This document shows, one piece after another, positions 16,449-55,124 of a DNA stretch of 64,000 nt (positions within the stretch are counted from its first letter, which is position 1; every line of letters starts with the position of its first letter). The stretch comes from Rhodosporidiobolus odoratus (lineage: Eukaryota; Basidiomycota; Microbotryomycetes; Sporidiobolales; Sporidiobolaceae). The notes below the pieces were generated by a model that did not search any database, had not been told where the DNA came from, and saw only the letters and a program-made list of their open reading frames with translations. The stretch is from positions 434,001 through 498,000 of the forward strand of contig JAOANU010000014.1 of NCBI GenBank assembly GCA_034387635.1. The letters are read 5' to 3'. The position numbers and the translations under genes were made by a program.

Positions 16449-16790
16449 ACTTCTTGCAGCGCACTTATTAGCGCACTGAGGGTGATAGCCAGGACTACCA
16501 GTGAGTGGTATCTATGGTGGCTGCAGCATTGGGCATGTTGGGGCACACTCTGAGCCATGGTGCTGTATTATGACAAGATTGTGACGGGTTGTGCCCTCTT
16601 CTCTACTACGATCTGGCATGGACCAGAGGCCTCAAAGTTGCTTCCAAGTCAGCTAGGCAAGAGTAAGTGTAGATGGACCCACACCTGTCACCCGTCTGCG
16701 ATGCCAGACGCGGCGTGAAGTCCGAATACAAGGAGGCAAGCGGAAAGAAAAGAGAAAACGGAAGCACAAAGATCGCTGTCGCAAAAGGAT

Positions 16791-16872
16791 TGCCGCTTGC
16801 CCGGATCGAACGGGCGACCTGCAGAATGCAATAGGCTTCAGTCTGTCGCTCTCCCAACTGAGCTAAAGCGGC
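16791..16872 (-). tRNA. tRNA-Phe (GAA), with intron
   Basis: Minus-strand cloverleaf of 82 nt. The acceptor GCCGCTT pairs with AAGCGGC and the discriminator is A. The D-arm is GCTC...GAGC. Anticodon stem CAGA/TCTG encloses CTGAAG with anticodon GAA, followed by an intron of about 9 nt after position 37. The T-arm GCCCG-TTCGATC-CGGGC is perfect. An identical copy lies at 37755-37836. It is the outermost feature of the arm, about 340 bp from its edge. Confidence 0.95.
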
Positions 16873-17454
16873 CATTCATGTTAATTGAGCCAAAGCAACT
16901 TTACATATCTTTACGCGTAGTTTAGCATCTATATAATCTTGACTTTGCTTGAAAGGACAGAGTTCCCTTGCTCACAATGTTTCTGCCCCTGCAGTAAGGT
17001 GCGGCCCTGTACACTTTGTTGAAAGGGTACCAACCTTGCTTATCATCTGTTTCTTTGCTGACAACGTGAAGCAAATGTTGTAGCTGGCAACTCTGCCAGA
17101 ACCCATGGCATACAGATCTGAGCAATTCACATACCCCACCAAGGTTGGTTCAGCTGCCCATACCACATCAAGGCTACAATAGTAGATTCCCTCTCGAAGA
17201 AACACATTGGGAGATCAGGTTCTTGCTTGTTTGCTGGGGCCAGCGACATCAACCGGAGGGAGGGAGGGGTACTAGCTATGGCGGAGATGATAACCTTGTA
17301 GTGTGTAGAGTAGTGGACACATTAGCAAGGGTAACAGTGAAGTAGCCCTTGTTGCGGTGGCCAAAGAAAAGAAGAAGAAGAATCTAGAGTATGTCCGCCG
17401 GTTGAGTCGGGGAAGACCGGGGTCCGGGCCCAACTGTAGCGATACGGAGCTTGC

Positions 17455-17600
17455 TAGAGGCGAGAGAGAACAAAGTGTGAACGGTGTGGCAGAGCAGTCA
17501 ACTAAAGAAGAACTACTTACCTACAGGCGAGAGAGAACAGAGTGTGAATGGTGAAGAAGAGAAAGGAAAGAAAGGAAGACGAGGTTATATAGGGAAGTGT
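17455..17600 (-). promoter_or_regulatory. TATA-type promoter-like repeat, left-arm copy
   Basis: On the minus strand a TATATAACC box (plus 17583-17592) is followed by a long pyrimidine tract and two direct repeats containing ttcacactytgttctctctc, the first ending in GTAG|GTAAGT like a splice donor. The right-arm copy is at 37033-37180 and a diverged third copy at about 40255-40395. The layout looks like a pol II promoter and leader, perhaps of an old LTR element. That is inference. Confidence 0.4.
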
Positions 17601-17734
17601 AGGTAGTGCGACAGACTGTCTCACAAGTCTCCCAGGCACAAAGGTGATACCGACAAAGGAGGGATAGGAATAACTTGGAAAAGGTAGAGGCTAACCAAAG
17701 AAGTGAAGGAGAACAAGAACTGAAGTGGAGTGAA

Positions 17735-18072
17735 TGTAAGGTATCACTACCTTACGACTCACAATGCTCAAGTTGCATTACGCTTCCGAGCTATGGTGCG
17801 GGGGATCTGTTGTGGGTCGTGGGATATTGAGTAGGAGGATTGTTGGATGAGGATAGGGAAATGTTGAAGGACGGGACTTAGGTTTTGAGCGAGAACCTGG
17901 CTTGCCTTCTTTCTTCTCGCTCACGCTGAGTTAGACTGCCTGCCAGGTTCGTGCATCTCTCTAGTACATCCGTAGACGCTCACGCTGAGTTAGACTGCCT
18001 GCCAGAACACACTATTGGCCCTTCAGTCTCTCTTCGTTCGAGCTAGTGAGGCGTCGAATACGACGCCCTCCA
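17735..18072 (+). repeat. 5' LTR
   Basis: 338 bp, TGTAAGG...CCCTCCA. It contains a 26-28 bp unit (gctcacgctgagttagactg and on) present twice, about 60 bp apart. It differs from the 3' LTR at three sites. Confidence 0.97.
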
Positions 18073-18307
18073 TTTTTTTTTTGAAGACGCCACTCTGGCT
18101 ACCCGTAACGCCTACCGACGGCTAGGAATCACACCTACCCATCCCTCCGTATACCCCCAAGAGCGCTCAAGACGACGTGAGCGAGCGCCATCGATCTCTT
18201 CCGAAATCAGTCAACAATCGACTTCCTCCTCAGCCTCCGACACGGACGCCGAAGACGAAGCCCCCGATCCTCCGTTACAAGCGCTACGCCCTCGTACACG
18301 CCCCGTC

Positions 18308-19978
18308 ATGTCCACCTATGTTCCCACCCCTTTCTCCCTCGGCAAACCTCCCCAACTTACCGACCTCTCCCCCCACTCCCTTGTCAACTTCCTACTCGCG
18401 TTTGAACTCTACTTCGATCTCAAGGATGTCACCGCCACACGCAAGAAGATTCTCATGGTCGGCCTTTCGGTCACCAACTTCGTCAAACTCAATGCCTGGT
18501 GGACTGGATCCATGGCCTCGCACCTTACGAAAACCTACGATCAGTTCGTGAAGGACCTCAAGAGGGAAGCGTTGCCGCGGGACTATGTATGGGAGGTTGA
18601 GCGGGACATTAGGGAGAGTAAGCAGCGTGGGAAGGATTATGGAGAATGGTCGGGAGCGCTCCGTCTCGCCCAACAGGCGATATCTACGGCAGCGATGACG
18701 GATCTGGAGTTGGTGAAGAACCTTCTATACGGAATGGACGAGGAGTTGGCTCGCTACCTTCGCCAACGCGAAGTACTTGTCGGCACCGGCTATCACGAAG
18801 ACGACAGGGACGCCATCGGCCTTGGTGCGAGCACCCCCTCTCTCCTCGAAACCGCTACAGACGCAGAAGGAGCGACAACGGCGATACAACTGGTGGATTA
18901 TGGAAAGTTCGATCGAGCGGCGAGGGATCAATGGGCGGTTATCTCGGCTAGGAGGACGGACGTCGCTAGGCAGGTAGGTACAGCGAAGAAGGGTAATGCG
19001 AGTGCAAACTCCGCTAGACAACCTAACAACGGCCCTACCACCCCCACCACGGCTACTCTTCTTTCGTCCTCGCCTCGCCCCGCCTCGCCCGCATCGCCCA
19101 CGGCTCAACCCGGTTCCGCCGCTCTTACGCCTATCGAACGCGCCTATCTGAGCGCTACTTACGGCTGTACCAAGTGTCGCAAACCCTGGCAGAAGCACCG
19201 CGCTATCAACTGTACCGACCCGATCTCCCGCAACCGAGTAGCAGTCCCCGCTTCCTTCCAGATCGGCGACACCGTTACTCCACCCCCCGGATTTACCCCT
19301 TCAGCCGACTCGTACGTCCCGACCTTGCCAACTACTCCCGGTTCCGCCCCAACTCCTACCACCCCAAAGGTCGTCTCAGGGTTACGCAAGTTCACCCTCG
19401 CCGAGGACGTCGACGATGGAACGGGTTTGGAAGAGCTGGACTGGTCAAGTGGTGACGATGAAGAGTGCGTTGAGATTCATCTTCCCTCCCTTTCCCTCCG
19501 AGCGGGTTTCCCTTCGATGAAGACTGAAGTAGGCGACGCACTAGCTGACTCCGGCTGCTCTTCCATCTATATTTCAGATAGGATGGCGGACAAGCTGGGG
19601 TTGGTTAAGCAGCGGCTGAAAAGGACTAGAACGGTGAAACTTGCAATTCAGGGAGGGTTAGAAACGAATCTCACGATCTCGCATTACGTCCGCGTCCCGG
19701 TACGAGTCGAAAACGGCTACTCCTTCGGTCCCATTCTGTTCAAGGTCGCGCCTCTTGAGGAGCCGTACGACTTCATCCTCGGCAATCCTTTTCTCCAACG
19801 TTTCCGCATCTCGATTCACCTTCACCCGTACCCCCGTCTCGTCATGCCCTCCGCCGACGCCAAGGAGGAGATCGACCTACTGCAGCAAGCCCTACCCGTC
19901 TTCGGCCCCCCTCCCTTGCCGACTCTCTTCCAACACTCGTCGACGAGCGGAAGGACCGTCTTTACGCCGCCAGCGTGA
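18308..19978 (+). CDS. Gag-protease polyprotein of the Ty3 element
   Basis: 556-codon frame from the ATG at 18308. The first 160 residues (SLVNFLLAFELYFDLKD..., TYDQFVKDLKREALP) form a helical capsid-like Gag domain. A variant zinc knuckle C-x2-C-x6-H-x4-C lies near residues 286-301. A retropepsin-like protease follows with ALADSGCSSIYISD near residue 411, the catalytic Asp in DSG. The same frame is open back into the region just after the LTR (about 18083) without an ATG, so a longer product from a non-AUG start cannot be excluded. It overlaps the pol frame by 220 nt. Having the protease in the gag frame rather than in pol is worth noting. Confidence 0.93.
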   Translation: MSTYVPTPFSLGKPPQLTDLSPHSLVNFLLAFELYFDLKDVTATRKKILMVGLSVTNFVKLNAWWTGSMASHLTKTYDQFVKDLKREALPRDYVWEVERDIRESKQRGKDYGEWSGALRLAQQAISTAAMTDLELVKNLLYGMDEELARYLRQREVLVGTGYHEDDRDAIGLGASTPSLLETATDAEGATTAIQLVDYGKFDRAARDQWAVISARRTDVARQVGTAKKGNASANSARQPNNGPTTPTTATLLSSSPRPASPASPTAQPGSAALTPIERAYLSATYGCTKCRKPWQKHRAINCTDPISRNRVAVPASFQIGDTVTPPPGFTPSADSYVPTLPTTPGSAPTPTTPKVVSGLRKFTLAEDVDDGTGLEELDWSSGDDEECVEIHLPSLSLRAGFPSMKTEVGDALADSGCSSIYISDRMADKLGLVKQRLKRTRTVKLAIQGGLETNLTISHYVRVPVRVENGYSFGPILFKVAPLEEPYDFILGNPFLQRFRISIHLHPYPRLVMPSADAKEEIDLLQQALPVFGPPPLPTLFQHSSTSGRTVFTPPA

Positions 19979-22974
19979 CTGCGCGAATCGCAGTGCTCGA
20001 GGAGGAGATGAAGCAGGCCGAAGAGAAGGCAAAGGAACTGAAGGAGATGGAGGAACTGCGATCGACGTTGATGGCTGACTACAAGGATCGCTTCCCCGAC
20101 GGCATTCCTCCGCTTTTCCAAGCCGACAAGTCGGACGTCCGCCACTACATCAAGTTCATCGACCCTCAGAAGGTGCATAACCAACGAGGGTTTCCGTCGC
20201 CGGCTAGGTGGAACGTCAGGTGGAAGGCCCTGCTGGATAAGCATGTCGCCGCCGGTCGTCTCCGCCCGTCTCGGTCCCAGTACGCTTCGCCATCCTTCGT
20301 ACAGCCCAAGAAGGATCCCATGGCCGACCCCCGTTGGCTCAACGATTATCGCCGTCTGAACGCCAACACGGTAAAGGATCGGACACCACTCCCGGTTCCC
20401 GACGAGATCTTGGCGCAGGGCGCGCAAGCTAAGTACTGGGCAAAGATTGACATGTCTGATGCCTTCTTCCAGACCCTCGTCTTCGAGGACGACATCGCCA
20501 AGACCGCAATCAAGACGCCATGGGGCCTTTACGAATGGGTCGTCATGCCTCAAGGTCTCTGCAACGCGCCGGCAACACATCAACGTCGCATGAACGAGGC
20601 GCTGTCCTCCCAGATCGGTCGTATATGCCACGCCTTCGTCGACGATATTCTCATCTGGTCGAACACCATCGAAGAACACGAGAAGAACGTCCGAGAAGTA
20701 CTTTCCGCATTACGCTCTGCCGGTCTCTACTGTTCACCCAAGAAGACCGACCTCGTCACCACCGACACGGAATTCCTCGGTCACCGTATCTCCCGCGCCG
20801 GCATAGCCGCCGATCCAAACAAGGTCGACCGAGTCGTCAACTGGCCAACTCCCACCACCGTCAAGCAGCTCCGGGGCTTCCTAGGTCTAGTTCAATACCT
20901 ACGCAAGTTCATCGTGGGACTAGCACAGCATACGGCTGTACTCACGCCGCTAACGCGCAAAGGGTTGGGGGATATTACGGCGTTATGGACGGATAAGGAG
21001 GAAGGAGCTTTCAAGGCTATCAGGCAAGTCGTCACTTCTCTTCCCGTTCTCCGCCCCGTGAACCACGCTGAGGGTGCAGAGCCTATCTGGCTCATGACGG
21101 ACGCCTCCAAGGTGGGGATTGGTGCGGTACTCCTCCAGGGACCGGACTGGAAGACGGCTTACCCTTGCAGCTACTATTCGCGACAGTATATCCCGGCTGA
21201 GAGGAACTATCCTACTCACAAGCAGGAGCTGTTGGCGATAGTAGCTGCTCTTAAGGCTTGGAGGATTGAACTACTGGGCGAGCGATTCTCTGTTCTCACG
21301 GATCATGAGACGCTCAAGCACTTCCGTACGCAACCGGATCTCTCGAAGCGCCAAGCTCGTTGGTCCGAAGTCCTTGCGGACTATGACTACGAGACGATAT
21401 ACGTTCCGGGCGAGAAGAACACGGTTGCGGATGGACTAAGCCGCTATCCCTTTCAGGCAGACAAGGCTGAGCCGGGTCTTGCGGTGATGGGGCTGAGTGA
21501 AGCATCCCTGAGCAAGGGTGTTCTGCAAACCATCAAGGATGGTTACAAGGAGGATGCAGATTGTGTGAAGATGCTTGATGCAGCGTCGAAGAGTGATCTC
21601 TTCCGAGAAGAAGACGGGTTACTTTACACTGATGACGGGCGTTTGGTGATTCCGCAGCATGCGAGGTTGCGCGAAACGCTCCTCCACGATTCCCACGATG
21701 CTGCGGGTCGTTTCGGCGCCCTGAAAACGTATCAAGCACTCTCAAGGTCCCTATTCTGGCCGGGAATGACCAGGGACGTGAAGCACTACTGTCGGTCGTG
21801 CGATTCCTGCCAACGCATGAAGGCAGAGACTAAGAAGGCGCAAGGTGCGCTTCACTCTCTTTCTGTACCCCCTGCATTGTTCTCGGACGTCGCCCTCGAC
21901 TTCGTCGGTCCGCTTCCAAAGTCGAGGGGGCACGATTACCTCTTGACGGTCTCGGATCGACTGTCAGGGTACGTTCGGCTCATTCCGTGCTCAACGAAGG
22001 ATGACGCGCGTGCTGTGGCTGCGCTGTTCTTTGAGCACTGGGTGAGGTTTTTTGGTCAGCCTCGCCGCATTGTCTCAGACAGGGATCGCCTTTTCACCAG
22101 CCGTTTCTGGAAGACGCTGCAAAAGGCAATGGGAACCCGATTACAAATGTCTACGGCGTTCCACCCTGAGACGGACGGGCGCAGCGAACACACCAACAAA
22201 ACCGCGGTGCAGGTGCTGCGTGGAATGGTCTCAAGGAGACAGACGGACTGGGCCAATCATCTTGCTCTCACGGAGTATAGTATGAATTGCGCTGTCAACG
22301 TCTCTACGGGTAAGTCTCCGTTTGAATTGGTACTTGGTTTTGTGCCAAACATTTCCCCTGCCTTGGCGGCGAGGGACGCTGTTCCTTCCGTTGAGGAGGT
22401 TCTCTCTGCACGCGAAGCTGGTATCAAGGAGGCACAAGATGCGCTGCGCTGGGCGAAAACCCAGCAGACGGCGCAAGTCGCTGCGCGCCGACGCAGCGAC
22501 GAAGAGCTGTTTACTGTGAATGACCTCGTTCTCGTCTCTTCCAGGGATCGTCGTCGTCGCTTCAAAGCATCTGGTTCCAAGGATCTCCGCTCCGCCAAAC
22601 TCTTCCCTCGATTCGACGGTCCATACCCCGTCACAGCTGCCTTCCCCGAACAATCCCTCTATCAACTACAACTCGGACCCGATGACCGCTCCTTCCCAAA
22701 ATTCCACGTCTCGAAACTCCGACGATACATCCCCAATGACGACAACTCCTTCCCCAACCGTACACCTCCCCGCCCCGAACCGATCGTCGTTAATGGTGCA
22801 GAAGAGTTTGTGGTCGAGAAGGTGGTGGATGAACGGAAAAGACGCGGTAAGATGGAGTACCTGGTGAAGTGGGAAGGGTATCCGGACGCGGAAAACACCT
22901 GGGAGCCGCTAGAGAGCTTGTCGGGGGTTGAAGCGCTGGAGGTTTGGAATGAGGACAGGGCGAGGGGGATTTGA
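19759..22974 (+). CDS. Pol polyprotein (RT, RNase H, integrase, chromodomain)
   Basis: This frame is open from 19759 and lies in the -1 frame relative to gag, overlapping it to 19978. No ATG starts it (only GTG at 19975), so translation most likely uses -1 frameshifting. Counting from 19975: reverse transcriptase to about residue 300 with MPQGLCNAPATHQ and the FVDD catalytic box near 219; RNase H with LMTDASKVGIGAVLL near 371 and TDHETLKHF; integrase zinc finger H-x3-H...CRSCDSC at 571-612; integrase core D (ALDFVGPLP near 640), D (IVSDRDRLFTS near 700) and E (PETDGRSEH near 735); and a chromodomain at about 944-995 (EFVVEKVVDE, YLVKWEGYPDAENTWEP). No stop or frameshift was found. Chromodomains of such elements can steer integration to heterochromatin by reading histone marks, which fits the setting. 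Confidence 0.96.
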   Translation, partial: GAVRLHPRQSFSPTFPHLDSPSPVPPSRHALRRRQGGDRPTAASPTRLRPPSLADSLPTLVDERKDRLYAASVTARIAVLEEEMKQAEEKAKELKEMEELRSTLMADYKDRFPDGIPPLFQADKSDVRHYIKFIDPQKVHNQRGFPSPARWNVRWKALLDKHVAAGRLRPSRSQYASPSFVQPKKDPMADPRWLNDYRRLNANTVKDRTPLPVPDEILAQGAQAKYWAKIDMSDAFFQTLVFEDDIAKTAIKTPWGLYEWVVMPQGLCNAPATHQRRMNEALSSQIGRICHAFVDDILIWSNTIEEHEKNVREVLSALRSAGLYCSPKKTDLVTTDTEFLGHRISRAGIAADPNKVDRVVNWPTPTTVKQLRGFLGLVQYLRKFIVGLAQHTAVLTPLTRKGLGDITALWTDKEEGAFKAIRQVVTSLPVLRPVNHAEGAEPIWLMTDASKVGIGAVLLQGPDWKTAYPCSYYSRQYIPAERNYPTHKQELLAIVAALKAWRIELLGERFSVLTDHETLKHFRTQPDLSKRQARWSEVLADYDYETIYVPGEKNTVADGLSRYPFQADKAEPGLAVMGLSEASLSKGVLQTIKDGYKEDADCVKMLDAASKSDLFREEDGLLYTDDGRLVIPQHARLRETLLHDSHDAAGRFGALKTYQALSRSLFWPGMTRDVKHYCRSCDSCQRMKAETKKAQGALHSLSVPPALFSDVALDFVGPLPKSRGHDYLLTVSDRLSGYVRLIPCSTKDDARAVAALFFEHWVRFFGQPRRIVSDRDRLFTSRFWKTLQKAMGTRLQMSTAFHPETDGRSEHTNKTAVQVLRGMVSRRQTDWANHLALTEYSMNCAVNVSTGKSPFELVLGFVPNISPALAARDAVPSVEEVLSAREAGIKEAQDALRWAKTQQTAQVAARRRSDEELFTVNDLVLVSSRDRRRRFKASGSKDLRSAKLFPRFDGPYPVTAAFPEQSLYQLQLGPDDRSFPKFHVSKLRRYIPNDDNSFPNRTPPRPEPIVVNGAEEFVVEKVVDERKRRGKMEYLVKWEGYPDAENTWEPLESLSGVEALEVWNEDRARGI

Positions 22975-22993
22975 GCTCGCGGGCTCGCTTCTA

Positions 22994-23006
22994 AAGGGGG
23001 GAGGGG
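22994..23006 (+). other. polypurine tract
   Basis: Thirteen purines (AAAGGGGGGAGGG G-type run) lie immediately before the 3' LTR at 23007, the usual plus-strand primer site. Confidence 0.85.
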
Positions 23007-23344
23007 TGTAAGGTATCACTACCTTACGACTCACAATGGTCAAGTTGCATTACGCTTCCGAGCTATGGTGCGGGGGATCTGTTGTGGGTCGTGGGATATT
23101 GAGTAGGAGGATTGTTGGATGAGGATAGGGAAATGTTGAAGGACGGGACTTAGGTTTTGAGCGAGAACCTGGCTTGCCTTCTTTCTTCACGCTCACGCTG
23201 AGTTAGACTGCCTGCCAGGTTCGTGCATCTCTCTAGTACATCCGTAGACGCTCACGCTGAGTTAGACTGCCTGCCAGAACACACTATTGGCCCTTCAGTC
23301 TCTCTTTGTTCGAGCTAGTGAGGCGTCGAATACGACGCCCTCCA
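23007..23344 (+). repeat. 3' LTR
   Basis: 338 bp. Three mismatches to the 5' LTR (one near each of 23039, 23189 and 23308). Followed by target duplication GTGAA. Confidence 0.97.
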
Positions 23345-24895
23345 GTGAAGCAGGAAAGAGGAAAGAAAGATTCGTCTCTCTGACTTCAACCATCAACTCC
23401 TCAAGTCTTCCGCCCACCCTGAAATGCTCTTGCAACCAACACCAACCCCCGTATCAGCCCGGGGAGTCGGGGTCCCGGTTTCCGGTCTGGATCCCGTTGG
23501 GAGACGGTAGATCCCGGTGCTTTTTCCGGCTCTCTAGGACTCTGCAGCAGACACTTTGTACTCTTTGCAAGCCCTTTGAATGCTCTCTACAGGGTATATA
23601 GGGGCCTAGAGTGGCACTCAAGGCTGTGTGAAGCCGCGGATTTGAGTGAAGGAAGGCGGACTTGATTCTTTCTTACTTTCTTCTGCTACCCACGCTTGCT
23701 GGGGTCTCTCTTCCTTCTGTAGACCTCTGCTGTATGTCAACTGTTGCTGTCTGGTGCTAGCAATCGTACAGGACTTCTATGCTCTCGAGTCTCGCCTTTT
23801 TCCCAACTTGCCTGGTCGGATCGGGGATTCTCCGGTCAGAATTGGGACACCGGGGTCCGACTCCCGGTCAGATCCCCGATGGCAGAAAGGCGGATTTTGA
23901 CCCCCAGTGCACCGGTCGCCGGGGTGACCGGAGACCGGCTGACAATCTCCAGAAGAATCCCAATCTATGAGTCCGTTCCATCCCTCAACATTTCATCTCA
24001 TACCCATCATCATCCTTGTTTGTAGCAGGGAACCACAGGTGTGGTGAAGCTGCAAGAAAGGAATGCCAGCACGGACAAGAAGAAGAAAAAGAGAGAAATG
24101 GAAGTAAGGAGAAAGACTCAACAAATGGGGGTGTTATAGCTAGCCATGCTAGCATTCTATTAGATAAGCATCTCTCACAGAGGTTGACATCTACCGTCTT
24201 ATAGCCACTGTTCTAGTTCCTCGAAACGTCCTTTTGCCTACATTGTGGCTACCCCGCAAAGCCAACATAAGGAAGTTGAAGTTGAGTTGAGAAGGCCAAC
24301 TCTGGTGTTGGCTGCAAAGCTCTTTCCCCTCTTTCCCAATATTCACAGATTCTCTCTCTATTGTGTGGGAGGCATCTACAGCATCATCTGTGTCGCATAC
24401 CCCCACTCTGGTCTGCTTCCAGACCATGCCGTTGACTCATTTCCTTAGACTAACCAGCTGTGCCTTTGCACAGACAGCTTCAAACAGCAGTGATGGCAGC
24501 AATGCCTCGGTATGTGATCCCTGAGCTGCTCATACACTTCTTACACTGCCCTGGTGCTCTGGCCTATGTTGCCCCGCTCAAGGCCAAAAACCCATGCTGC
24601 TCAAACTCCAGCCATGTTCGTGACCTTCTCAGTTCAGTTCTGCTGTTGACTGCCAAAGTTTTCAGGCTACATGGGGATAATGTGCTGGCAGGCAGTGTAG
24701 ACCTACAAGCTTGACAAGCTGTAGATAGGCTAGTGTGTGTTGTGTGCAGCAGGACAGGGGGGGATACACACACACACCAGCTTCACCCAAATGTGCTGTG
24801 CATGGCAGTTTGCCCCCAAGTGTCCTTTGACGGGTCTGCAGAAAACCCATGAAGCATGTCTAGCCATAAGAGAATGTACAACAACGACCTGGGTA

Positions 24896-26134
24896 TAGAG
24901 AATGCTCACCGACTCCCGGACCGCCGACAGCTCGGGATGTCGGGCTTTCCGGGGGCTGATCTGTCGGTCGGGGGAAAGGTCGGGGAGCGGGCTCCCGAAT
25001 CCCGAAAAAGTCGGCGATCGGCCCGACATGTCGGCAAAGTCGGGAAAAAGGTGAAACATGATTTTCACGCCTCAAGAGAACCAGCGAGAGCAGCGAAGCG
25101 CAGAAGGGAACAAAGCCATCATTTCCAAGAGAGACAAGAACAGCTACAGAAGAGAGAGCAGACGGAAACCGGAAAAAGGACTAGTCGAGAACAATATCGT
25201 CGTTGTCCTCCTCGGCCACATCAACCTCCCGCTCGCTGGCCAACAGCCTGAGCTTCGTCTCATCCTCCTTCCACCTCTTCTCCTTAGGCAGCAATCGTTC
25301 CGGCAAGAGGTCAGCCTTGGACCAAGCACCGACGGTGAGGGTGGCAGCGAGGGTGGAGGGGGAGAGGCGGTGACGGCGTTCAGACACCTGAAGGCGGCCG
25401 AAGGAGAAGGCTCTCTCAACGGTGACGGACGAGACTGCAAGGTAGAATAGAACAATCAGCTGCAGGCCCAGCAATAATGAGCAGCTAGAAAGAACGAAGG
25501 AACGCACCGGGCACCGAGAAGACGTCGAGGGCCATCTCCGTCAACCCACCCCATTCCCTGCCTTGCGCCCTCTCACTCGACCACCAGAGGAAGGGATTGA
25601 CGGCCTTGTTGTTGGCGCCAACGACAATGTCGCCGTTTATGAACGAGGCGAGGTAGTCGACTGGAGATGCCGTGGCGGTAGAGGCCGAGGCGGCAAGGAA
25701 GGCGGCGAGGGGAGAGCGGGTTGTGGTGGCGGAGGTGGAAGGAGACTGTATGTGAGAGGCATGTGAACAAAGGGGAATTCAAGGAAACAGAGGAGAAAGG
25801 CGAAGGACAAGAAATCGAGAGAAGTGCGTACCGAATCGGTCCGCGGAGCGGGATGCTTCACTTCGTAGTCCTGCTTGTAGCGTTCGAAGCGGGCCTTAGC
25901 AAGCTTGACGGCATCTTGTATCCAGTCCTTGGTCCAGCGCGCTCGATGGCGGAGGTACGAGAGTCGAATGGAAGGGTGGAGGACTGTGCAAGTGAGTAAG
26001 GTTCGGGGAGAAGTCAGGAAACCAGCTACCCATTTCGGCATCCATGTCGGGGTCGGCACCCCGACCCCCGAACCGTGTCGGAGACCGGCACCCCGACCCC
26101 GAAGATCCCCGACTTTTGTCGGATGCATTCTCTA
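24896..26134 (-). mobile_element. hAT-family DNA transposon, internally deleted
   Basis: A 1,239 bp insertion with perfect 10 bp terminal inverted repeats TAGAGAATGC / GCATTCTCTA and an 8 bp target duplication CCTGGGTA (24888-24895 and 26135-26142). The right arm of the inverted repeat has the empty site at 35326-35333. Subterminal regions are packed with GTCGGG/CCCCGAC motifs, as transposase-binding repeats often are. The TIR, the 8 bp duplication and the transposase remnant inside all point to hAT. The N-terminal half of the transposase is missing, so the copy is non-autonomous. A 501 bp relative with the same TIR is at 54321-54821. Confidence 0.95.
25181..25982 (-). pseudogene. hAT transposase, C-terminal remnant
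   Basis: Three minus-strand exons can be joined: about 25982-25832, 25745-25508 and 25434-25181, introns GT-AG. The product begins within the RNase H-like fold (VLHPSIRLSYL, then RFERYKQDYE) and continues to NPFLWWSSER...EMALDVFSVP. It ends with the hAT dimerisation motif SSVTVERAFSFGRLQVSERR followed by RLSPSTLAATLTVGAW and an acidic tail. Family transposases have about 600-700 residues; only about 210 remain. The zinc-finger N-terminus and the first catalytic residues are absent, and the DNA between the left TIR and 25982 has no matching coding text. Confidence 0.88.
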
Positions 26135-26294
26135 CCTGGGTAAATATTGTTGCTGGTGGACTAATCGCTCTTTTCCCCTTCCCCACTTTGCTCTGCTCTG
26201 TAGTTTTGTCTACTTTGCTTTTTTGTATACTCTTACTGCTGGGCAATTGAGCAAATACTTCTGTTGGTGGTCAGGGCACTGTGAGATGTAAGAA

Positions 26295-26318
26295 GGGGGG
26301 GGGGGGGGGGGGGGGGGG
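26295..26318 (+). repeat. poly-G tract (24 G)
   Basis: Uninterrupted run of 24 G. The mirror position in the right arm has 21 C, then A and four C. Confidence 0.95.
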
Positions 26319-45200: not shown

Positions 45201-45755
45201 AAGTCAGCAGTTATTATGGTGTGGTGGAAATGCAGAGTTGTGTTTCGCTCCACCTCTGTCTTGAGTGTGGCTCGACGGTGCGCTGTCTCCATTGGAAATG
45301 CGCAAAAGAGCGGAGGAGAATCCAATCTGCCTCTTTTCTTGGCTCGAAGGGGTGATCAAGCATGACTTCCCCAAAGAAACTGATCAGCAGCGCAAGCCTA
45401 CAGTCAGTCCAGTGCTTCAAAGCAAGGTCAAGACAGCAACACCTGACTATGTATCAACAGCTCAACATGGTCTGACTGACCGCCTCAATGCGACTGGTCA
45501 AGTCCATACCCACACATTCACATGCTACAAGCATCTGCCTAAACTTGCCCTGGCTGCCAAAGACCCTGACACTGATGCCGTTTCAATTCCCCAATCAAGG
45601 CAGTCCCTGATACTCACCTAAAGGAAGAGGGAAAAATCCAGTTGAAGAAAATCAAGGAGTGGACGAATGGCTATAACAAGGATATGGTGTCTTCGTTGCA
45701 CTGCAACATGGACAAAAAACTCATTCAGAAGGGAACAGCAGGCTTAGCTATGATG
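42290..45755 (+). mobile_element. Helitron fragment (Rep N-terminal region), degenerate, interrupted
   Basis: Pieces in several frames, in the order of the Helitron-like N domain: FEMLVIARA near 42592, SPLLVPRGAIQAW and NPHYKVVNIDFAAFDK at 42830-42945, LFPYGVG near 43255 and LFGRYNSLQRRLALHTAYL at 43395-43450. After a LINE insertion come GMPTLFITINPADTINPVAQ near 44980, then GLFGKVSSYYGVVEMQS near 45190 (the YYG...E-x-Q rolling-circle region, with the following His motif damaged) and IQLKKIKEWTNGYNKDM near 45640. Frames shift repeatedly and the Rep His-x-His site and helicase are missing. Such elements normally encode a Rep-helicase that moves by rolling-circle transposition; this one cannot. 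No 5'-TC or 3'-CTRR hairpin end was found. Host sequence for LINE copy A (42072-42290) may belong to it too. Confidence 0.75.
43497..44772 (+). mobile_element. LINE copy B (5'-truncated) inserted in the Helitron
   Basis: 1,276 bp flanked by an 11 bp duplication TCAGCGGCTAA (43486-43496, 44773-44783), so its ends are exact. The 340-codon frame 43509-44528 starts in RNase H after its first Asp (LLQGVYQAELEGLRLA, VFADNSSAISLP, HWIAGHEGVEGNELADEMA). It passes a charged linker to a terminal finger C-x-C...H-x4-C (CECGVQETREHFFLHC), as in fungal Tad-like LINEs. The tail is tagtctacatgggccactgg...ttggaataaagcaaacaaac, an (AAAC)n end typical of target-primed insertion. No RT or endonuclease remains. 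Confidence 0.92.
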
Positions 45756-46445
45756 CACTCGAGCCGATCCCGCCTTGGGAGGTGTCGACGGCAGCGGTGA
45801 TAACAGTAGCGGAGTCGAAAGAAGCGGCGAAGGTGGTGCATGATGAGGTTCTAGGGAAGGCGGGAGAGCGGGACTTGGTGATCTATACAGACGGTAGCCT
45901 GATGGAGCAGCACAGCGGCGCAGGTGTGGCGGTTCGGGTGAAGAAGGAGGGGGAGATCTGGTGGGCGAAGCGAAGTCGGGCTCTCGGTCTCTTCCAAGGT
46001 GTCTACCAAGCTGAACTGGAAGGCCTGCGGCTTGCCTTGTCCTTTCTTCCCGTGCTCCTCTCTCCCCCTGACAACCCAGCGGTTCACCTCTTCGCCGACA
46101 ACTCGTTCGCCGTCTCCCTCCCTTTTGATGCTCGTCCCTCTTCTGCGCAATTTCTCCGCCTCGACATACGTCAACGACTGTCACAGCTACGCCAAACACA
46201 TCCTCTCGTCTCTATCATCTTCCACTGGATTGCTGGCCACGAAGGGGTCGAAGGGAACGAAATCGCCGATGAGATGGCTCGGAGGGGATTGGAGGAGGGG
46301 ATCGAGGCTTTGGCAGCAGCGGAGAGGAAGCGCAGTCGCCGCAGGAGGATAGTCATGCCCCGCGAGGCGGCGGAGGCCAGTCTGTCCTCACTAGACGATG
46401 AGGGGAGCTCGTATTGGGAGGAGGAGACGAGCAGGTTTGCCGCGG
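45756..46445 (+). mobile_element. LINE copy C (longest RNase H, 3' end lost)
   Basis: Frame 45782-46513 carries an almost whole type I RNase H: DLVIYTDGSLMEQHSGAG (first catalytic Asp), YQAELEGLRLAL (Glu), HLFADNSFAVS (Asp) and HWIAGHEGVEGNEIADEMA (His/Asp). Homology to copies A and B stops near 46445 (YWEEETS...), where the gag-like remnant begins, so its 3' end was cut off by that junction. At the 5' side it abuts the Helitron directly. Confidence 0.85.
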
Positions 46446-46446
46446 G

Positions 46447-47985
46447 TCAGAAAGATGATGAGGACGGTGAAGATGGGGGCTCATTGGGAAGAGAAGTGGG
46501 CCCATCTATCTGAAAGTAAGCAGTCTCGGTGAGAGCGGCTGTTGTTGTTGCCGTTGCGTGAGTTATCGCGACCAGATGGAGAAGGTCGCAAGTAGCTGCC
46601 GTTGTTGTTGCTCTCCTGTCTACGCTGAGGCTGGGAGAAGCCGGATTGAGTATCAAGCATCCTGAGAGCCTGCTTGATGTTGCGTGCTTCCTTGGCCATG
46701 TCACAGTAAAGGATCTTCTCCTTGCGGTTCCAACCGCAGAGGCCCTTCTCTCGGTAGAGATGCATCTTGATGTCCGGACGCAAAGCCTCAACAGAGCGGT
46801 TCTTGCGTTGCATAGGAGTGGCCTCGTTGAGCCTCTCAGCGATTTCAAGAAGCTTGGTGTCAAGGTCAGAGACCGACATGAAGGAAAACCATCCCTCCAG
46901 CGTGGCAAGAAGGGCTTCCCACTTGACCTCAGCCTTGAGATGGTCATCCTTGTTGACATAGCGACCGTAGAGCTCGTTGCGGATCCTACCAAGAGGCCAG
47001 GGGGAAGCGATCGTGCGCGAATCAACCAGTTCATCAGGGAGGCAAAGGTCGAGATCTTTTTGAGCCTCTCTGTTGGCCCAATCGCCGGCAGCAACATCGA
47101 GCGTGCTGATGGCGATGTTTGTAGCGTACTGAGAGGTTTCGTGGATCAGAGCCGTCCTCATTTGCGTGCGAAGAGCCATGTACCAGCGGTCGAGTTCAAG
47201 AGGAGAATCCTTCCTTCCGGAATACTTGCGCACAATGTCCAGCTTGAACGGAGCCTTAAGTCTTTGGCAGAGACTCCTTTGAGCAGAGTTCCCGCTTTCA
47301 GATAGGTGCGCCATGTAGCGCGGGAAAACTCCCAATGGCTGTCATCACTAGACGACTCGCTTGAAGTGTCACTCGAGTCAGAGCTGCTTCCATTGTCTCC
47401 CTTGCCACCGGCGTTCACGATAACACCTGCAGGTGTCGAGGTACAAACATAATTTCCAACACTAGCGGCCATGGGAGCGGAGACTTGAGTGGAAGAAGTA
47501 GCTTCAGCCCTGCAGTTGTTCTCAGCTGCGACTCTCTCCACAATCTCTCGGCGCTCCCTGGCGCGAGCAATAGTGCCCATGGCGTGATCAACTTTGCGGG
47601 ACAAACACTCCGGCGTGTGGGTAGCCACGGGAAGCGAACCAACGGAAATGCCCTTGGGGTGTTTCAAGGCTCCCTGTGCGTCGGAAGTGACCAATTTGGC
47701 AATAGAGGAGGCCCTTTCGTCGACCTTCTCAGGTTGGACCTTCTGATTAAGTAGCCTGGCAAAGGTTACTGGGTCCATTCCGGCGCTACCTAGCGTTGCA
47801 AGGACTTTGTATACAATGCTAGTAGGGTCTAACTCGACTTGTTGACCCTTGGGTGGCGCAGCAAAGAGAGCGGCCGTTGTAGGTGCCTCCCTCAACTCGG
47901 CAATTCCTGTCAGGATCTTCTGGCTGAGCAGGGAGGTGATAGTCTCCAACCTCTTGTCTTTGATGGGGGTTGAGCGGTGGTCCAA
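46447..47985 (-). pseudogene. LTR-retroelement gag, frameshifted
   Basis: Two overlapping minus-strand frames make one Gag-like protein. The first (47985 to about 47255; its nominal start is a TTG, and an ATG at about 48028 lies in another frame) is Ala/Ser-rich with DTSSESSSDDSHWEFSRATW. The second (from about 47255 to 46481) reads LKAPFKLDIVRKYSGRKDS, ELDRWYMALRTQM, WEALLATLEGWF, then Asn/Arg-rich. The join ...AKD/LKAPFKLD needs one extra nucleotide near 47254, so a 1 nt deletion is inferred. The central ELDRWYMAL...YV block is typical of retrotransposon Gag. Zinc knuckle, protease and RT are absent because the element stops against LINE copy C. LTRs were not found. Confidence 0.7.
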
Positions 47986-49675
47986 TACAGTGGACCAGTG
48001 TCAGGCATTGTGTTGCGGATCGAAAGCGAAGTCTCAGGATAAAGTAGAGCAAAGGTAACCTAGGTAGAAAGCGTTGGGGTAGCTAATCCCAACGAAGCAG
48101 TAGCAAATAGATAGCGACCGGCACTATCAAAGCGATAAAGCAGAAAAGAAAGCGAGAGCGATAAAAGGAAGCCTTGAGAAGAGGTTGGGTTGGTGACTAA
48201 AATGAAGCGCTATGAAGCAAATCTCGAAGGCACCTGGATGAACGGTAGGTTTGGTGTGTACTGTGTTCGTGAGAATTGCTGGTAGGACAATGGGAAGGGA
48301 CTGGTGTAGAAGGGCTTGTTAAAAAAAGCTGTAAGCATCGAGCAGACTCTAAGCTTGCAGTACAAGTCTTGGGGCAAGGGCGAGCAAACAATACCAACCA
48401 ATTGATTACACAAGTGATAGTCCAATAAAGCAAGGGACAACGAGAGACAAGGTCGAGGGGGAGGGGAAGTCTGGAGAGGAAGCAAGAGAGAGAGAGGGAG
48501 AACCAACGAGTGAGGCAGGGAGCGCGGGGGGCTTGCTATGTAGTTACAAAGGGCAAGTAATAAAGCATGAAAGGGGAAAGGCAGAAAGACGCGAGACGAA
48601 GGCGAGCGATTGAATTAACGGGAGAAATTGAAAATGGCGGGTGGACGGCACAGGAGCGGGGAACGATGACCTAGACCCTGACATTAACCAGGCTCTTCAG
48701 GATGCCAAACATGACAGACACGCTTCTGTGGCCTGTTTCTGAGTAGCACATTTGAGGGGGCTTCAACAGAGTCTGATGACAAATGAGACCAGCCAGGGAC
48801 CCCGGTAGATTCTGCATCTTCCAGTGCAGGAAAGCAATCACTTGTGCCCTCATTCAGCTGCAGATGGTGTAGCAAGGTTTCCATTGTAGCAGATCTCTCA
48901 TGAGAGATGTTGAGATGGAATGTGTTTTCAATAGACCCCTCAGGGAGCGGGCAGTTTCTTGACATGCCTGGCCTTTGATCACTGCAAAAGCTTGTCTAGA
49001 CCTATTGATATCAATATATTGTACATACACACAGCTGACTGATGAGGTTTTGTCAATCTCAAGCTCATGTTGACTTGGTCAAGATGAACTGGGACCCTGA
49101 TGAGGAGGAGACGGCGGCTGAATACCTGCAGCTGCAGCCTGATTCAGAGTGACACAGCAGCCCAGTTCACATCGATGAGTCAAGAGCGAGTTGAGCAGTC
49201 GCTGTGTAGAAGTGCGTGCAGAGATGTTTTGCCTTCAAGATGAAAAGGGGCCCACTGCTTGACAGTATCTGCTGTGTTTGTGAGAGAATAAGATAACACT
49301 TGTTGTTTTTCAGCCACACTCAGATCAGCCTCTACACTGTCAGGGCCAATAATGCCCTTTGGCTGTTGTGCCCGAAAACCCTCGTTGGAATCAGTATCAA
49401 TCTGAGCCTGCTCCTTGTTCCGTCTCAGATCTCGAGATGGGTCTGGATCTGAGACAGCTCATGATTATGTGACTGAGGCTGTAGCTGAGACTGAGACTGA
49501 CTTTGATCACAAAATCTGTTTTGCAAAGCAGACTGAAGAGTCAATGAGGGGGGAAGGGAAGAGGAGAAAGAGGGGAGAGGGGGAAGAAGGGAGAGTGAGG
49601 AAGAGGATGTGAGGAAACGGAGGATGTTGGAGGGTGAGTGAGATGAGGTAGAGGAGAAAACTGGAATAGAGAGCC
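47986..49675. other. gene-free region upstream of the gag remnant
   Basis: Purine-rich on the plus strand from 48060 to 48660, possibly the leader/LTR of the gag element, but no second LTR copy is in the window to prove it. Short frames (49415-49612 and others) have no family match. Confidence 0.5.
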
Positions 49676-50622
49676 AGCTATTGACCAGAGTAGGTCGTTT
49701 CCTGAGCCAGTCGACCAGAGTAGGTCGTTCTATGTCATTCTGGAGGAGCGCATCTTTGAACGGAGCGAAGGTTGCGGCAGCAGTTGTTGCGGATTGGACT
49801 GAACATGCTGAAGCACATCCTGGAGAGCTTTCTGCAACTCAGCTTGCTGTCTCTCGTGGACTCACCTACCAGATAACAGAACATCCATTCTCAGAAGACA
49901 TGAGCAAGTTAAAAGAAAGCACAGAAGAGAGCCCCTTTGACGGCAACCATAAATCTGACACCCCTGCCTCTTCGTTTGCGCAGGACCCTTCTTCCCCGGG
50001 GCCTTGATGGGTGGAGGAAGAAGGTTCTCCATCTCTTCCAGGCTGTGGAGGTCAATAGCGATAGAAGGGTAGGGAACCGGGTAGGTGAGGCGGCAGACTG
50101 CGGTCGTCATGCGGGGGTCGACATATTGAACCAGAGAATAACCCACGGCGCGGATGAGACGGGAAATACGAGAGGTTGAAGGTGATTGAGAAGGTCGGAA
50201 GATGATCAATGTTGGTGACGGAAGCAGCAGAAGCGCGGGGATATGGCAGTAGGGGAAGGCGGCCGAGATGGTCGACAGGAGGCAAAGAGGAGTTAGAAGA
50301 GCATGAGAAGAAAACGACAGGAATCAGTTGACATGAGAGAATCAGAACGGAGAAAAAGGGGAAAGGCTCACACCATGACAGCACGGAACGAGGGTATCGC
50401 GCCACCCCAAGCAGCTACAGATACCAGCCGCATAGCGGATCTCGTAGCAAGTGAAGGAAGAGAAAGAAGCGAGCCTGTGCTGCTCTCAGGATAACCGACA
50501 CGTCGCATTGCGGACCTCTCCCGTTTGCTCTTGGCAGCCACTGACCTGACGTAGTCCATCTCAGACCAAACTACCTACTCTGGTCGACTGGCTCAGGAAA
50601 CAACCTACTCTGGTCAATAGCT
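49676..50622. mobile_element. DNA-transposon-like element with 50 bp TIRs
   Basis: Ends 49676-49725 and 50573-50622 are inverted repeats of 50 bp with one mismatch, starting agctattgaccagagtaggt. Inside each TIR the unit gaccagagtaggt occurs twice, about 34 bp apart. If the element proper starts at TTGACCAG, the flanking dinucleotide on both sides is TA, the duplication of Tc1/mariner-type elements, but this is not decisive. The interior (about 0.85 kb) has frames up to 117 codons without transposase motifs. Non-autonomous element inferred. Confidence 0.75.
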
Positions 50623-50696
50623 CGTAGAGAGCAGAAGAAAGAGCAGGCGCACAGAGGGCGGGAGGGAGGAGCTGGGGGGCAGGAGGAAGGGGCAGG

Positions 50697-51551
50697 TGTC
50701 AGGAAACCTTGAAGGAGCTACTAATTGCCTATATGGCCATATATGGTCGACAACCTTGGATGCCCTAATTTTCTCTACTTTGCTACCCCTTTGAGCCAAG
50801 TTGGCTCGCTTCGGCGCGACATGGACATATTTGCTCCGGTCAACTCCATTTGCTCGTCGCGAGCATATATGGTTATATTTGACCATGTCCATTTAGGCTC
50901 GGGTTACCCCGGCCAGATGTGGCGCTGTCGCTGGTAGCGAGCGTACCTGTCTATGACGGCTGTGCAATGCCAGGACCACAGCTTGCAAGGATGCAGAGAA
51001 GAGAAGAGAGAAGCGTCGGAAAGATTAGATCTGTTCCTTCATTACGGGACTTGGCGTATTCGGCTCGCTCTCCTCTCTTTCTCCTCAACTCGCTACTCTC
51101 ACCGCTCATGCCTGCCCTTGTCCATACACTATGTGCTTGTTAATACTGCAGCAAGGCCAATTAGAGTTCCAGGTCAGGCGCTTGTACGCGCAACACGTCG
51201 CTCAATGCGACGCTGCTCTCGACGCTCACGCTTCCCCGGCCGGCCCACCCCCTGCTACTGCTTCTGCACCGCCTATCTGTATCCTGAACGACTTAGATCC
51301 ACCCCGTAAACGCCCCCGCGCTGCCTGGCCACTGCCGCAGGCCTCACCCTCCTGTTCGCGCTCGCTCCAAATATCCCCCACTTCTTCCGAAGTTAACCGT
51401 TGCCGTCCTTTCGGTGCAGTCGGATGACCCCTCGAACAAGTTTGTCGCAAAAACCATATTTGGTTATATTAAGCCTTATATGCTCAATTGACTTTGTAGT
51501 GGTTGATTTGCCCATATAATACAATGTATGATCAGTCAAGGTTTCCTGACA
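50697..51551. mobile_element. MITE-like element with 16 bp perfect TIRs
   Basis: TGTCAGGAAACCTTGA at 50697-50712 is repeated in perfect inverted form at 51536-51551, 855 bp apart. The subterminal DNA is rich in catatatgg/ccatata words (50732-50750, 50860-50880, 51455-51520). The flanks (ggggcagg and gggggggg) match at six of eight positions, so a target duplication is uncertain. No transposase is encoded. Confidence 0.72.
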
Positions 51552-54320
51552 GGGGGGGGTGAAATGAGGCAGCATGAGCGTATTTGCAGGGTTGTGGAGC
51601 AGCAGAGCGGCAGAAGTAAGAGAGAGGACAGTAGAAGGTTTGTGAAACGCCCCGCTTCTCTTCCTCTGGCACTTCCAGCCTCAACTTCCAGCACCTCCAT
51701 TCTGAACAGTTTGCGGAAGTGAGCAGCATGCCGCTTCTTGGCAGGCTACCCGAGCATGTCTCCGCTCCGCAGTACGGCAGAAAGACAAAGGGGTTCGCGC
51801 TGCAAAGTGCGGGGAGAGCAGCCAACGCGCTGACCTTCTCAAAATACTGGCGACTTGCATTGCAGTGCAGAGTGTAGTGTAGCTGTAGCCCTTGTGAGAT
51901 AGCATGTTCTCACAATGCTGTTTCCGTTCATAGCAGCGTGGAAGCAAACAAACAACAGTCTGAGCTCGCTCTTGACTGCCGGACCTAATTGCGTAGCCAA
52001 AACTAATCGAGTTGCGCTGAGAGACGGGTGTAAGATACAAAGATAAACATATAAAGAAGACAACTCGGAGGAGCGGGGGATGGTGGTGGGAGCGGAAAAT
52101 CAGATCGTAGCACGTCTGAAGGCGCTGCGTTTGGTGAATCAGGGTCAACTCCTGCAAGGAAAGAGCGGTAGAAAGCCGGGGCTCCTCACCAGGGACGTGC
52201 TAAGAACGGGGCAGACCGCTTGACGAGGAGGGGGGGGGGTGCCAACTCGAGACGGATCTGCGAGAAGGGGACTTCGGTCAGCCTCGAGTCCGGGGAGCTC
52301 GTCCAGCAGGCGACGTACCTAGCGAAGGTAGCCAATCTGCACAGTACAACGAGTCGGTAAGCGACTCGAAGGGAAGAGGTGCGGACAAGGACAGGAGCGC
52401 CCCGCCTCTCCCTCCTCCGGAACAAAGGGAAGACGGCGTACCAAGGGACCTCTGTACGGACTGTACGCCCGAGCCACCCTCCTTTGTTCCGCCGACCGTC
52501 AGCGCCTTTCGAGGCCGCGTCGCTGAGGCCTCTCCGGCAGGTTGACGCTGGAACAGGAAGTGGGGCTGTCCGTCAACTTCGCTCAGACTTGAGCGCGGGC
52601 TCCCTCGTTCCTCCTCCGACCGCAAACCTTGAGTCTCATCAATCTGCGGAGAGTCCGGGCGTCAAGTGGGCAAAGCCCTTGGACAGGTAGGGCTGAGCAA
52701 TACAGTGCCCCTGCAGTTGCTTACACGCCTTTACGGCCCTGGCTCAAAAGCAGTGCTGTAGCCATACCCGGCTGAACGAAGCAATGAGAGGGGAAGAAAA
52801 ATAACTTTGGAGGGACCCCGGAGCGGAGATGTGGAGAAAACTGTTCCTGTGCCTGCACACACCTGAGCATGGGGGGAGGCATGGTAAGAGCAGGTCTTCT
52901 TTGAAGTTTGCAATCACCAACGATATCACAAGGTTAGGAGCACTAGTGGATTCTTCATTCATGCTGTCTGCACTTGGAGCCACCCTCAGCAGCTTGGGAA
53001 ACTTGGCATCACACACACAAGCTGATGGTGCAAGCCTTGAGCCGCAGGACAAGTCTCGTTTACTACTGCTGAAGACTCGCAACTCCATGATTGGAGAATG
53101 TGAACTCTCTGCTCAACAGGTTGCCTCCTGGTTTCTCAAGCAGGCCAGTGAATCAGGTTCTGTCCTAGTCAGGTCGCCTACAAGAAAGGCAAAGAGGATG
53201 ATTATTGAGCTGTCCAGTGTCGAGGAGGAGGAGGGGGAGGTGGATGTGGAGGATCCAAGAGTGGCCCCTCGCAGTGCCAAGAGGGGACACAAGGATGGCA
53301 AAGAGGATGACAACGACCACCGAGGAGGTGCTGTGGTTGCTGAGGTCGCTTAGAGCTGTCAAGTATTACCTCCTCTTTCCCTCCTTTTTCCCTTTTGTTT
53401 TCCTTTCTTGTTTTACTATGGGTCGGATCAATGTCTGCAGTTTTACATCTGATAATAATCTATTACCTGTGAAAGCGAGTCCTACTTGCTGCCCCTGTCT
53501 GACGCTCCACTTCAAAGCTTGCACTGCCACTCGTTGGCATCCCCCCCCCCCCCCCCCTGGTGTCATAGCCTGAATGGTCAGTCAGTTTGTATTGAGCAGA
53601 GCATCAGTAGGGTCAATCACACTGGTGGACCAATCCCGACTGTGGCCGTGCTAACACCGTGCACTGTGGTTGGCATTCTTCTACAGCTCATGTGGGGTTC
53701 GTCCAGAATCCAGCATGGTCCACCAGCTGGAGTGCAGTATTGACAGCATATGGTGTCTGTCTGTCACTCTCCCCCCAGCTGGAGCAACCAGCTTACCTTC
53801 TACTTTATGTTCACTGCTTTCTGCCTGAAAGACACCAATGTCACGTTAGCCAGCATGCTGCATGTCAAGCTATGAGTGCTACATCTGTCATACTCAGCAA
53901 GCCACTCCGACACCATCCAAGCGCTACTCAGTACTGGCAACATGCATTGATGGGTACAACAGGAAGCCACATCCGTTGACCTTCTCAAACCACCGGGAGA
54001 AAACCATACACATCACTGCTTATCCACGGTCTCTGACACATATCCATACAGCCGTAAGACCTGAACCCTGGATGATAGTGGCAGATGCCCTTTCCGGGCA
54101 TTCTTGTGCTGACAGGGCTAATTTACCCTTTTCCGGTCCCCCCTTCCGCCGTGAAATCCGCTGTTCCCCTCTTGACGTCAATCTGCAGCTGGCATTGCCA
54201 GACAGACTGCACAAGGCTGCTCACTGGAGTGGGCAAGTAAGCTTTGCACACGTGTTCCTCATTCACAGGCCTGTTTTGCAGATGTCCTCATCAGTACGTG
54301 GTCTCCTGTCGGGCATAGGG
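51552..54320. other. gene-free region
   Basis: A plus-strand frame at 52829-53353 (174 codons; hydrophobic start, a Ser/Leu-rich middle, then a Glu/Asp-rich stretch) has no family resemblance and ends by a C-run; it may be transposon-derived. Other frames look accidental. G/C homopolymers occur at 52231-52240 and 53541-53557. No host gene is supported. Confidence 0.55.
53541..53557 (+). repeat. poly-C tract (17 C)
   Basis: Uninterrupted C-run, one of several long G/C homopolymers confined to the gene-free block. Confidence 0.9.
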
Positions 54321-54821
54321 TAGAGAACGCATCTGATCAGAGTCGGCAATCTTCGGCGTCGGCTCGCGGATCCCCGACAAAAGTTGGGAGATCGGGCTGC
54401 CATGCCCGAGCTGATTACCAATACGAGGAGCTGTTTTTTCAACTCAACCCCGACCCGAGTCTAGCTGGCACAGCGGTTTCGTGAGTAGCTGCTTTTTGGC
54501 AGGCTCATGCCAAGCACCTCCGGTCAAGTCTCGCAGGCTGCAATGACACAAAACCCTTGGAGAGCACGAAGTAACAGCTAGAATTCCCGGTCGAGAAGGC
54601 CAGAAAAGCTACTATTATTCCCTATTTCTGTTACTAGCCATACACCTGGAACTACCCTGTCCGACCGTTTCCCCGAAAGCCCCGGAATATTGGGCCAATT
54701 CTCAAGAAAGATCGGGGTTCGGGCTGCCAAACCCCGAGCTGACTCCCGTCGCGCCGCACTTGCCCCGAGCTGAACAATTTCCCGGCCTGTCGGCGGATCG
54801 GAAGTCGGCATGCATTCTCTA
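54321..54821. mobile_element. hAT-type MITE (501 bp)
   Basis: Ends TAGAGAACGCAT and ATGCATTCTCTA are the same TIR as the hAT element at 24896-26134, with one mismatch. An 8 bp imperfect target duplication flanks it: GCATAGGG (54313-54320) and GCACAGGG (54822-54829). The interior shares the ATCCCCGACAAAAG subterminal motif and repeated CCCGAGCTGA words but has no coding sequence. It was probably mobilised by the same hAT transposase; the mismatches make it older. Confidence 0.88.
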
Positions 54822-55124
54822 GCACAGGGGCGAGCTGCAAAGACTGTGCCTGACTGATAACACGGTCAACACCTGTCTAGCGATATTGGCCCTGTCCGTT
54901 CTCTCTTGCATGACTTTACCTCGTGCTAGCCCCCTTGACTGCATCCCTTAGAAACCGGACTCGAAGGAGAGCCAAAGCGGCTGAGCAGCATCTCACGTAC
55001 CTAAGCCACCGCGCGGGGGGTTTCTTCTACGTCGCTTCGACAAGACAACAACACCAAGACTATCAAAACGGGTTCAGCAGGGTGTCCACAGGGCAAACAC
55101 CGCCTGACACACATCAAACAGACA
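54822..55124. other. edge of gene-free block, 3' flank of HUL5
   Basis: About 300 bp between the MITE and the stop codon of the HECT ligase gene. No feature seen. Confidence 0.5.

Follow-up and report, generated by a model that had tools for sequence, protein, structure and literature searches.

A block of about 39 kb on contig C14 of the Rhodosporidiobolus odoratus genome is, to judge from its sequence, probably a long-silenced, heterochromatin-like region and one of a recurrent class of silent blocks that carry transfer RNA (tRNA) genes. The plan, a core between inverted arms with tRNA genes, is found at more than one place on the same contig, and we therefore class the block with the silent blocks that bear tRNA genes; some members of this class are probably centromeres. 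The block lies at 16,446-55,100 of the window, the 64,000-nucleotide stretch analyzed here (C14 positions 434001-498000; genome 24.8 Mb in 45 contigs, labeled C1, C2 and so on), and block coordinates follow the numbering of the window. Two observations go beyond an earlier note on this DNA: the CpG depletion of the old parts of the block and the recurrence of its plan on C2, C9 and C10.

CpG depletion, inverted repeat and gene content of the C14 block

The ratio of observed to expected CpG is 0.99-1.02 in the gene flanks versus 0.36-0.56 in the arms and core, with TpG/CpA in excess. In 500-bp bins the flanks stand at 1.01 (n = 49) versus 0.45 for the arms, core and 38-41 kb (n = 33; p = 6.5e-14) and 0.69 for 41-55 kb (n = 28; p = 1.9e-8). 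Both insertions present in one arm only are undepleted, at 1.07 (Ty3) and 0.97 (hAT-like). This pattern is consistent with a footprint of long silencing. CpG is close to 1 immediately left of 16,446, and on the right low values persist until about 54-55 kb. At the left edge it runs from 0.99 at 16.4k through 0.73 at 16.6k, 0.82 at 16.8k and 0.51 at 17.0k to 0.34 at 17.2k; this drop over 16.4-17.2 kb starts at the start of the arm, and the stretch includes the outer tRNA. The CpG level shifts near a tRNA here, as it does at the right edge of the C2 block described below.

The inverted repeat occupies 16,446-38,181, the left 22 kb of the block, with a distinct core between two arms that both carry tRNAs, one of these close to the block's left border; the arms differ in total by 18 substitutions in 5,145 aligned bases and 5 gap events. 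The earlier note had described near-identical inverted arms around a 4.6-kb core, with a tRNA-Ala near the core and a tRNA-Phe at the outer edge of each arm, and both the arms and the tRNA positions bear this out, the Phe identity by our own reading.

16446-17734 (+): outer segment of the left arm, partner of 36894-38181; 3 substitutions in 1,288 columns, CpG 0.56
16791-16872 (-): outer tRNA, Phe(GAA) by our reading, putative short intron; close to the left edge of the block
23344-24895 (+): middle segment of the left arm, partner of 35326-36899; 11 substitutions in 1,547 columns, CpG 0.43
26134-28443 (+): inner segment of the left arm, partner of 33023-35334; 4 substitutions in 2,310 columns, CpG 0.36
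27700-27781 (+): tRNA-Ala(CGC), left arm, near the core (ARAGORN/Rfam, 54.9 bits)
28444-33022: core, 4,579 bp, CpG 0.51
33023-38181 (-): right arm, uninterrupted, CpG 0.42
33685-33766 (-): tRNA-Ala(CGC), right arm, near the core, identical to the left copy
37755-37836 (+): outer tRNA, Phe(GAA) by our reading, in the right arm; same sequence as the left copy
38182-55100: right part of the block, CpG-poor, with relics of long interspersed nuclear elements (LINEs) and other retroelements; no mirror on the left

The outer tRNA is labeled '???' or Val(GAC) by ARAGORN and falls below the Rfam gathering cut-off. Read by eye, it contains CTGAA with the anticodon GAA (Phe), and we take it to resemble yeast tRNA-Phe.

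No host gene was found in 16,446-55,100, which agrees with the earlier claim of some 39 kb of gene-free DNA between conserved genes. The interval holds 98 stop-to-stop open reading frames (ORFs) of at least 100 amino acids. Pfam was run on 18 distinct ORFs from this set (20 entries, two ORFs having been entered twice): four matched retroelement domains, two of them below the Pfam cut-offs, and 14 had no match at E 0.01. To judge from this sample, the genes on either side are separated by an ORF-free stretch that carries truncated transposons, a call that rests on ORFs of at least 100 amino acids and that small or spliced genes could escape. A Markov null of ORF length was run on three block stretches and both flanks. 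The longest ORF was not above the null in 28444-38181, 38182-41000 and 48200-55000 (reached by 0.16, 0.12 and 0.29 of 100 shuffles), and in both flanks it was reached by 0 of 100 shuffles. Ten flanking ORFs were compared with Pfam, and the five that matched belong to the Sec1, Ras and cyclin families on the left and the HECT and DEAD-box helicase families on the right; the other five had no family. One ORF of the left flank matches R. odoratus JCM11641_007781 (83% over 97% of the query); to the eye most of the difference falls in two apparent introns, and some three substitutions lie elsewhere. A protein of the right flank has 97% identity to JCM11641_002311 over 85% of the query. Both matches fit R. 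odoratus or a very close relative as the host; a search for 5.8S rRNA gave no match.

The arms and core also contain inserted and dispersed sequences:

17735-23344 (+): Ty3/gypsy chromovirus with 338-bp long terminal repeats (LTRs) and the 5-bp target duplication GTGAA; left arm only, young
24896-26133: 1.24-kb insertion, judged hAT-like from the 8 bp duplicated at its target; left arm only, young
30495-31205 (+): 711-bp copy (98.6%) of flank 12527-13237, within the core
31829-32353 (+): sequence of about 525 bp, within the core
32741-33446 (-): dispersed 706-bp element, ends sharply defined; the copy in the left arm is truncated at 28443

The first of these is the chromodomain retrotransposon that the earlier note had placed beside the arm; it matches reverse transcriptase, RNase H, integrase and chromodomain families in Pfam. 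A similar copy of the 1.24-kb element lies at C1:684494-685738 (88.6%). The empty sites of both insertions are preserved in the right arm, and the inverted repeat therefore predates both. The source of the 711-bp copy is directly downstream of the Ras-like exon. The 706-bp element gave 19 matches longer than 400 bases in a genome search, two of them in the block, and 280 bp of it lie inside the core. Its termini seem reminiscent of pogo/Fot-type inverted termini. We considered this element as a once-per-contig centromere marker and rejected it, since its sharp ends, unrelated flanks and nearby gene-like ORFs identify a dispersed transposable element. The arms hold pieces of it and of an LTR-like sequence of about 390 bp, and the core holds LINE fragments.

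Two parts of the earlier description need narrowing. The core has the size claimed but is not entirely unique, as it includes the 711-bp flank copy, the LINE fragments, part of the 706-bp element and the shared 525-bp sequence. The repeat plan covers the left 22 kb and not the right 17 kb, which consists of transposon relics and other DNA without symmetry. ORFs of this right part match RNase H at 43.5-44.5 kb (below the Pfam cut-off) and 45.8-46.5 kb.

Inverted repeats on other contigs

In our DNA searches of the genome the best candidates were scored and common words skipped, and a sequence described as found only at given places is one found there by that search. The tRNA-Ala search returned inverted pairs on C2, C9 and C10 in addition to C14, and single matches on C7 and at C10:1122.7k; the outer tRNA was found, besides C14, on C2 only. 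The C2 locus repeats the order and orientation of C14: outer tRNA (-), Ala (+), core, Ala (-), outer tRNA (+). Its arms are 99.5-99.6% identical around a 12.6-kb core, and a 5.6-kb insertion flanked by an 8-bp duplication interrupts one arm, the other arm retaining the empty site. On C9, a 3.7-kb core lies between arms that reach at least 1.8 kb (99.8%) and bear tRNAs for Ala and Leu, and a further concentric pair of same-score tRNAs (Leu where read) lies at 152.5k/164.0k. On C10, 0.79-kb arms (99.5%) with tRNA-Ala enclose a 4.0-kb core. CpG is 0.48, 0.51 and 0.63 in the C2, C9 and C10 blocks, respectively. The four blocks have in common only tRNA genes and dispersed or short repeats. Among seven paired-tRNA loci whose flanking sequence was examined, six have arms that extend beyond the tRNA. 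The 525-bp sequence of the core was found only at paired-tRNA or inverted loci and at C13:460k; apart from its own copy, the eight matches lie in both outer arms of C2, on C7 as an inverted pair in pieces, and on C13.

The plan is not limited to one block per contig. On C14 a further inverted repeat with tRNAs lies at 159k/192k (arms at least 735 bp, 94.3%), and its CpG loss is weaker (0.72/0.76). C7 has one at 1092k/1130k (97.5% over 600 bases; CpG 0.76 at 1092k and 0.42 at 1126-1131k) and the inverted pair of the 525-bp sequence at 927.8k/937.7k, both members of which were identified by their match to the C14 copy. Same-score tRNA neighbors within 50 kb comprise 18 inverted versus 2 direct pairs (binomial p = 0.0004, the pairs being not fully independent), and 35 of the 62 tRNA matches stand in inverted pairs. 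In this count, tRNAs of equal bit score and equal length were treated as identical; of 573 first-look candidates 63 were scored, which gave the 62 matches. Two of the 18 inverted pairs and one of the 2 direct pairs come from a tRNA triple on C3. Genes other than tRNAs also occur as inverted duplicates: histone H3 genes at C9:474520(-) and C9:543729(+) form an inverted pair (913 bp, 92.7%). Three same-score H2B copies lie on C15 at 37944(+), 126349(+) and 142933(-).

Other regions were rejected as sister blocks. The inverted repeat at C3:354431-370041 (97-99% arms, 2.85-kb core) has no tRNA and a CpG ratio of 0.92, which shows that long inverted repeats form without tRNA and with little CpG loss too. 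Both its outer ends carry a gene fragment that by eye resembles glycine-cleavage H protein, and 24 of its 47 arm substitutions are CpG transitions. C15:617-623k, C5:1278-1288k, C10:871-881k and C1:684-694k appear to be transposon or gene-like regions (CpG 0.96, 0.86, 0.84 and 0.76, respectively), and C1:224-234k is intermediate (0.70). On C13, a tandem array at 466054-496580 has 12 listed copies of a LINE-like segment, most of them spaced by about 2.25 kb. It encloses a Ty3 match at 486-489k and is accompanied by the 525-bp sequence at 460k; it is possibly a different kind of silent block.

Probable silencing, possible centromere function and other explanations

In a silent block of this kind, CpG loss would be the mutational trace of cytosine methylation, gene conversion between the arms would hold them nearly identical, and tRNA genes transcribed by RNA polymerase III may help to keep silencing from spreading, a role proposed for such genes in fission yeasts. 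Arm divergence by substitution is 0.35% on C14, 0.36% on C2, 0.11% on C9 and 0.38% on C10. Because divergence is similarly low at four loci, two of which have one-sided insertions post-dating the repeat, the data suggest continuing gene conversion; the alternative is a recent origin of all of them. Several findings weigh against this account of silencing, tRNA edges and conversion. The LTR pair of the Ty3 element differs by 0.89% (3/338); its excess over the 18/5,145 of the C14 arms is in the direction expected under conversion but is not significant (Fisher p = 0.14). The fit of the edges to tRNAs is uneven, as the left dip on C14 starts outside the tRNA at the arm start, CpG loss on C10 extends about 0.9 kb outside the left tRNA, and no tRNA was found at the right edge of the C14 block near 55 kb. 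The 711-bp flank sequence and its core copy show three CpG losses in the core and one in the flank. The C3 repeat lacks tRNA and has little CpG loss. A tRNA-Cys pair at C14:500.8/503.5k, with only the 88-bp tRNA in common, surrounds what looks by eye like a FEN1-like gene in DNA of CpG 1.01; an inverted tRNA pair alone therefore marks no block.

The earlier note had proposed a regional centromere and named several such blocks per chromosome as an observation that would speak against it; the repeats on C14 and C7 go part of the way towards this. Under the centromere proposal CENP-A would occupy the 4.6-kb core, perhaps with the inner arms, heterochromatin would cover the relics and outer arms, and the tRNAs would act as boundaries. 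It is a special case of the silent-block reading, in which the block is active, so that our confidence in the two overlaps; we regard it as possible, if somewhat doubtful. The gene-free look, the CpG depletion and the same plan on C2, C9 and C10 favor it. The core, inverted arms and tRNAs match the fission-yeast plan (PMC6538654), and ORF-free gaps with transposon relics occur in Cryptococcus (PMC8407549). In R. nylandii, homologues of one gene per flank each lie on a contig of 970,493 bp, which would be compatible with a conserved location of the block. Against it, C14 has two repeats of this plan and C7 one together with the 525-bp pair, a count that bears on the plan and not on CENP-A and that assumes correctly joined contigs, which are not to be equated with chromosomes. 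No telomere repeat was seen at any of eight sampled contig ends (150 bases each), and chromosomes, or blocks per chromosome, can therefore not be counted; a genome search with a 60-base CCCTAA pattern gave no match. Ty3 pol matches (64 rows in all) are spread over several places on C2, C5, C7, C8, C17 and C23, and C14 has some at its left end too; transposons are therefore not limited to one cluster per contig. The left arm adjoins CpG-rich DNA with no CpG footprint of an outer silent zone, and the C10 block spans only about 5.6 kb, with gene-like ORFs right outside. CENP-A was not identified among eight histone loci opened out of 20 histone-fold matches, which by eye are five H3 and three H2B.

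Inverted duplications might instead be retained for doubling tRNA (and histone) genes, silencing being a by-product of transposon insertion beside tRNA genes. The frequency of inverted tRNA pairs among those scored, the pair around an ordinary gene and the H3 pair on C9 fit such a dosage effect, but it leaves kilobases of about 99.6% identical non-coding arm and the CpG depletion of the core unexplained, and we consider it unlikely. Still less probable is a role as a hairpin source, in which transcription over the inverted repeat would yield double-stranded RNA feeding RNA interference against transposons: the arms do carry the pieces of dispersed elements listed above, but the loop would be 4.6 kb long and the tRNA genes in the arms would be unneeded. 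Long-read chimeras can create palindromes, yet a chimeric assembly artefact is hard to reconcile with cores that are long and distinct, with insertions in one arm that have target duplications and preserved empty sites, and with recurrence at independent loci; we give it almost no weight.

Relation to known centromeres and meaning for the Sporidiobolales

Centromeres of fission yeasts are built of a core, inverted repeats and clustered tRNAs at the transitions, and hold about 32% of the tRNA genes (PMC6538654). The tRNA-bearing silent block resembles those of Schizosaccharomyces (cnt core, imr repeats, tRNA clusters) in its distinct core, inverted arms, tRNAs in the arms and near one edge, and adjacent relics, a likeness of organization without sequence homology. 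It differs in its basidiomycete host, the lack of a visible outer silent zone on the left, the occurrence of more than one such repeat per contig and the CpG footprint, S. pombe having no 5-methylcytosine (5mC) according to PMC8407549. Candida tropicalis centromeres, with inverted repeats of 3-4 kb and a core of about 3 kb (PMC7292649), share the few-kilobase core between near-identical few-kilobase arms. Unlike our blocks, which have only tRNAs and dispersed or short repeats in common, they are highly alike among chromosomes, and their definition in the accessible text includes no tRNA. Cryptococcus centromeres are ORF-free, transposon-rich and methylated, with 5mC and dimethylated lysine 9 of histone H3 (PMC8407549); the ORF-poor gap and truncated transposons are similar, and the CpG footprint here would be consistent with 5mC, but the sections of that paper available to us describe no tRNA-bearing inverted-repeat plan for them. 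In searches limited to open-licence papers, including PMC9027234 and PMC12584667, we found no centromere mapping for the Sporidiobolales and no tRNA inverted repeats of this type.

Our most general proposal is a tentative one, which we think may well be wrong: across the genomes of the Sporidiobolales, inverted repeats anchored by tRNAs and homogenized by gene conversion would found and bound silent chromatin, and the larger members would be centromeres convergent on the fission-yeast plan. If this is true, the plan of tRNAs, inverted repeats and core in a basidiomycete would represent an independent origin of the fission-yeast arrangement. The natural set of repeats, with or without tRNA, with long or short arms, and CpG-depleted or not, would then help to distinguish the features that call for CENP-A from those that call for silencing or for mere gene conversion.

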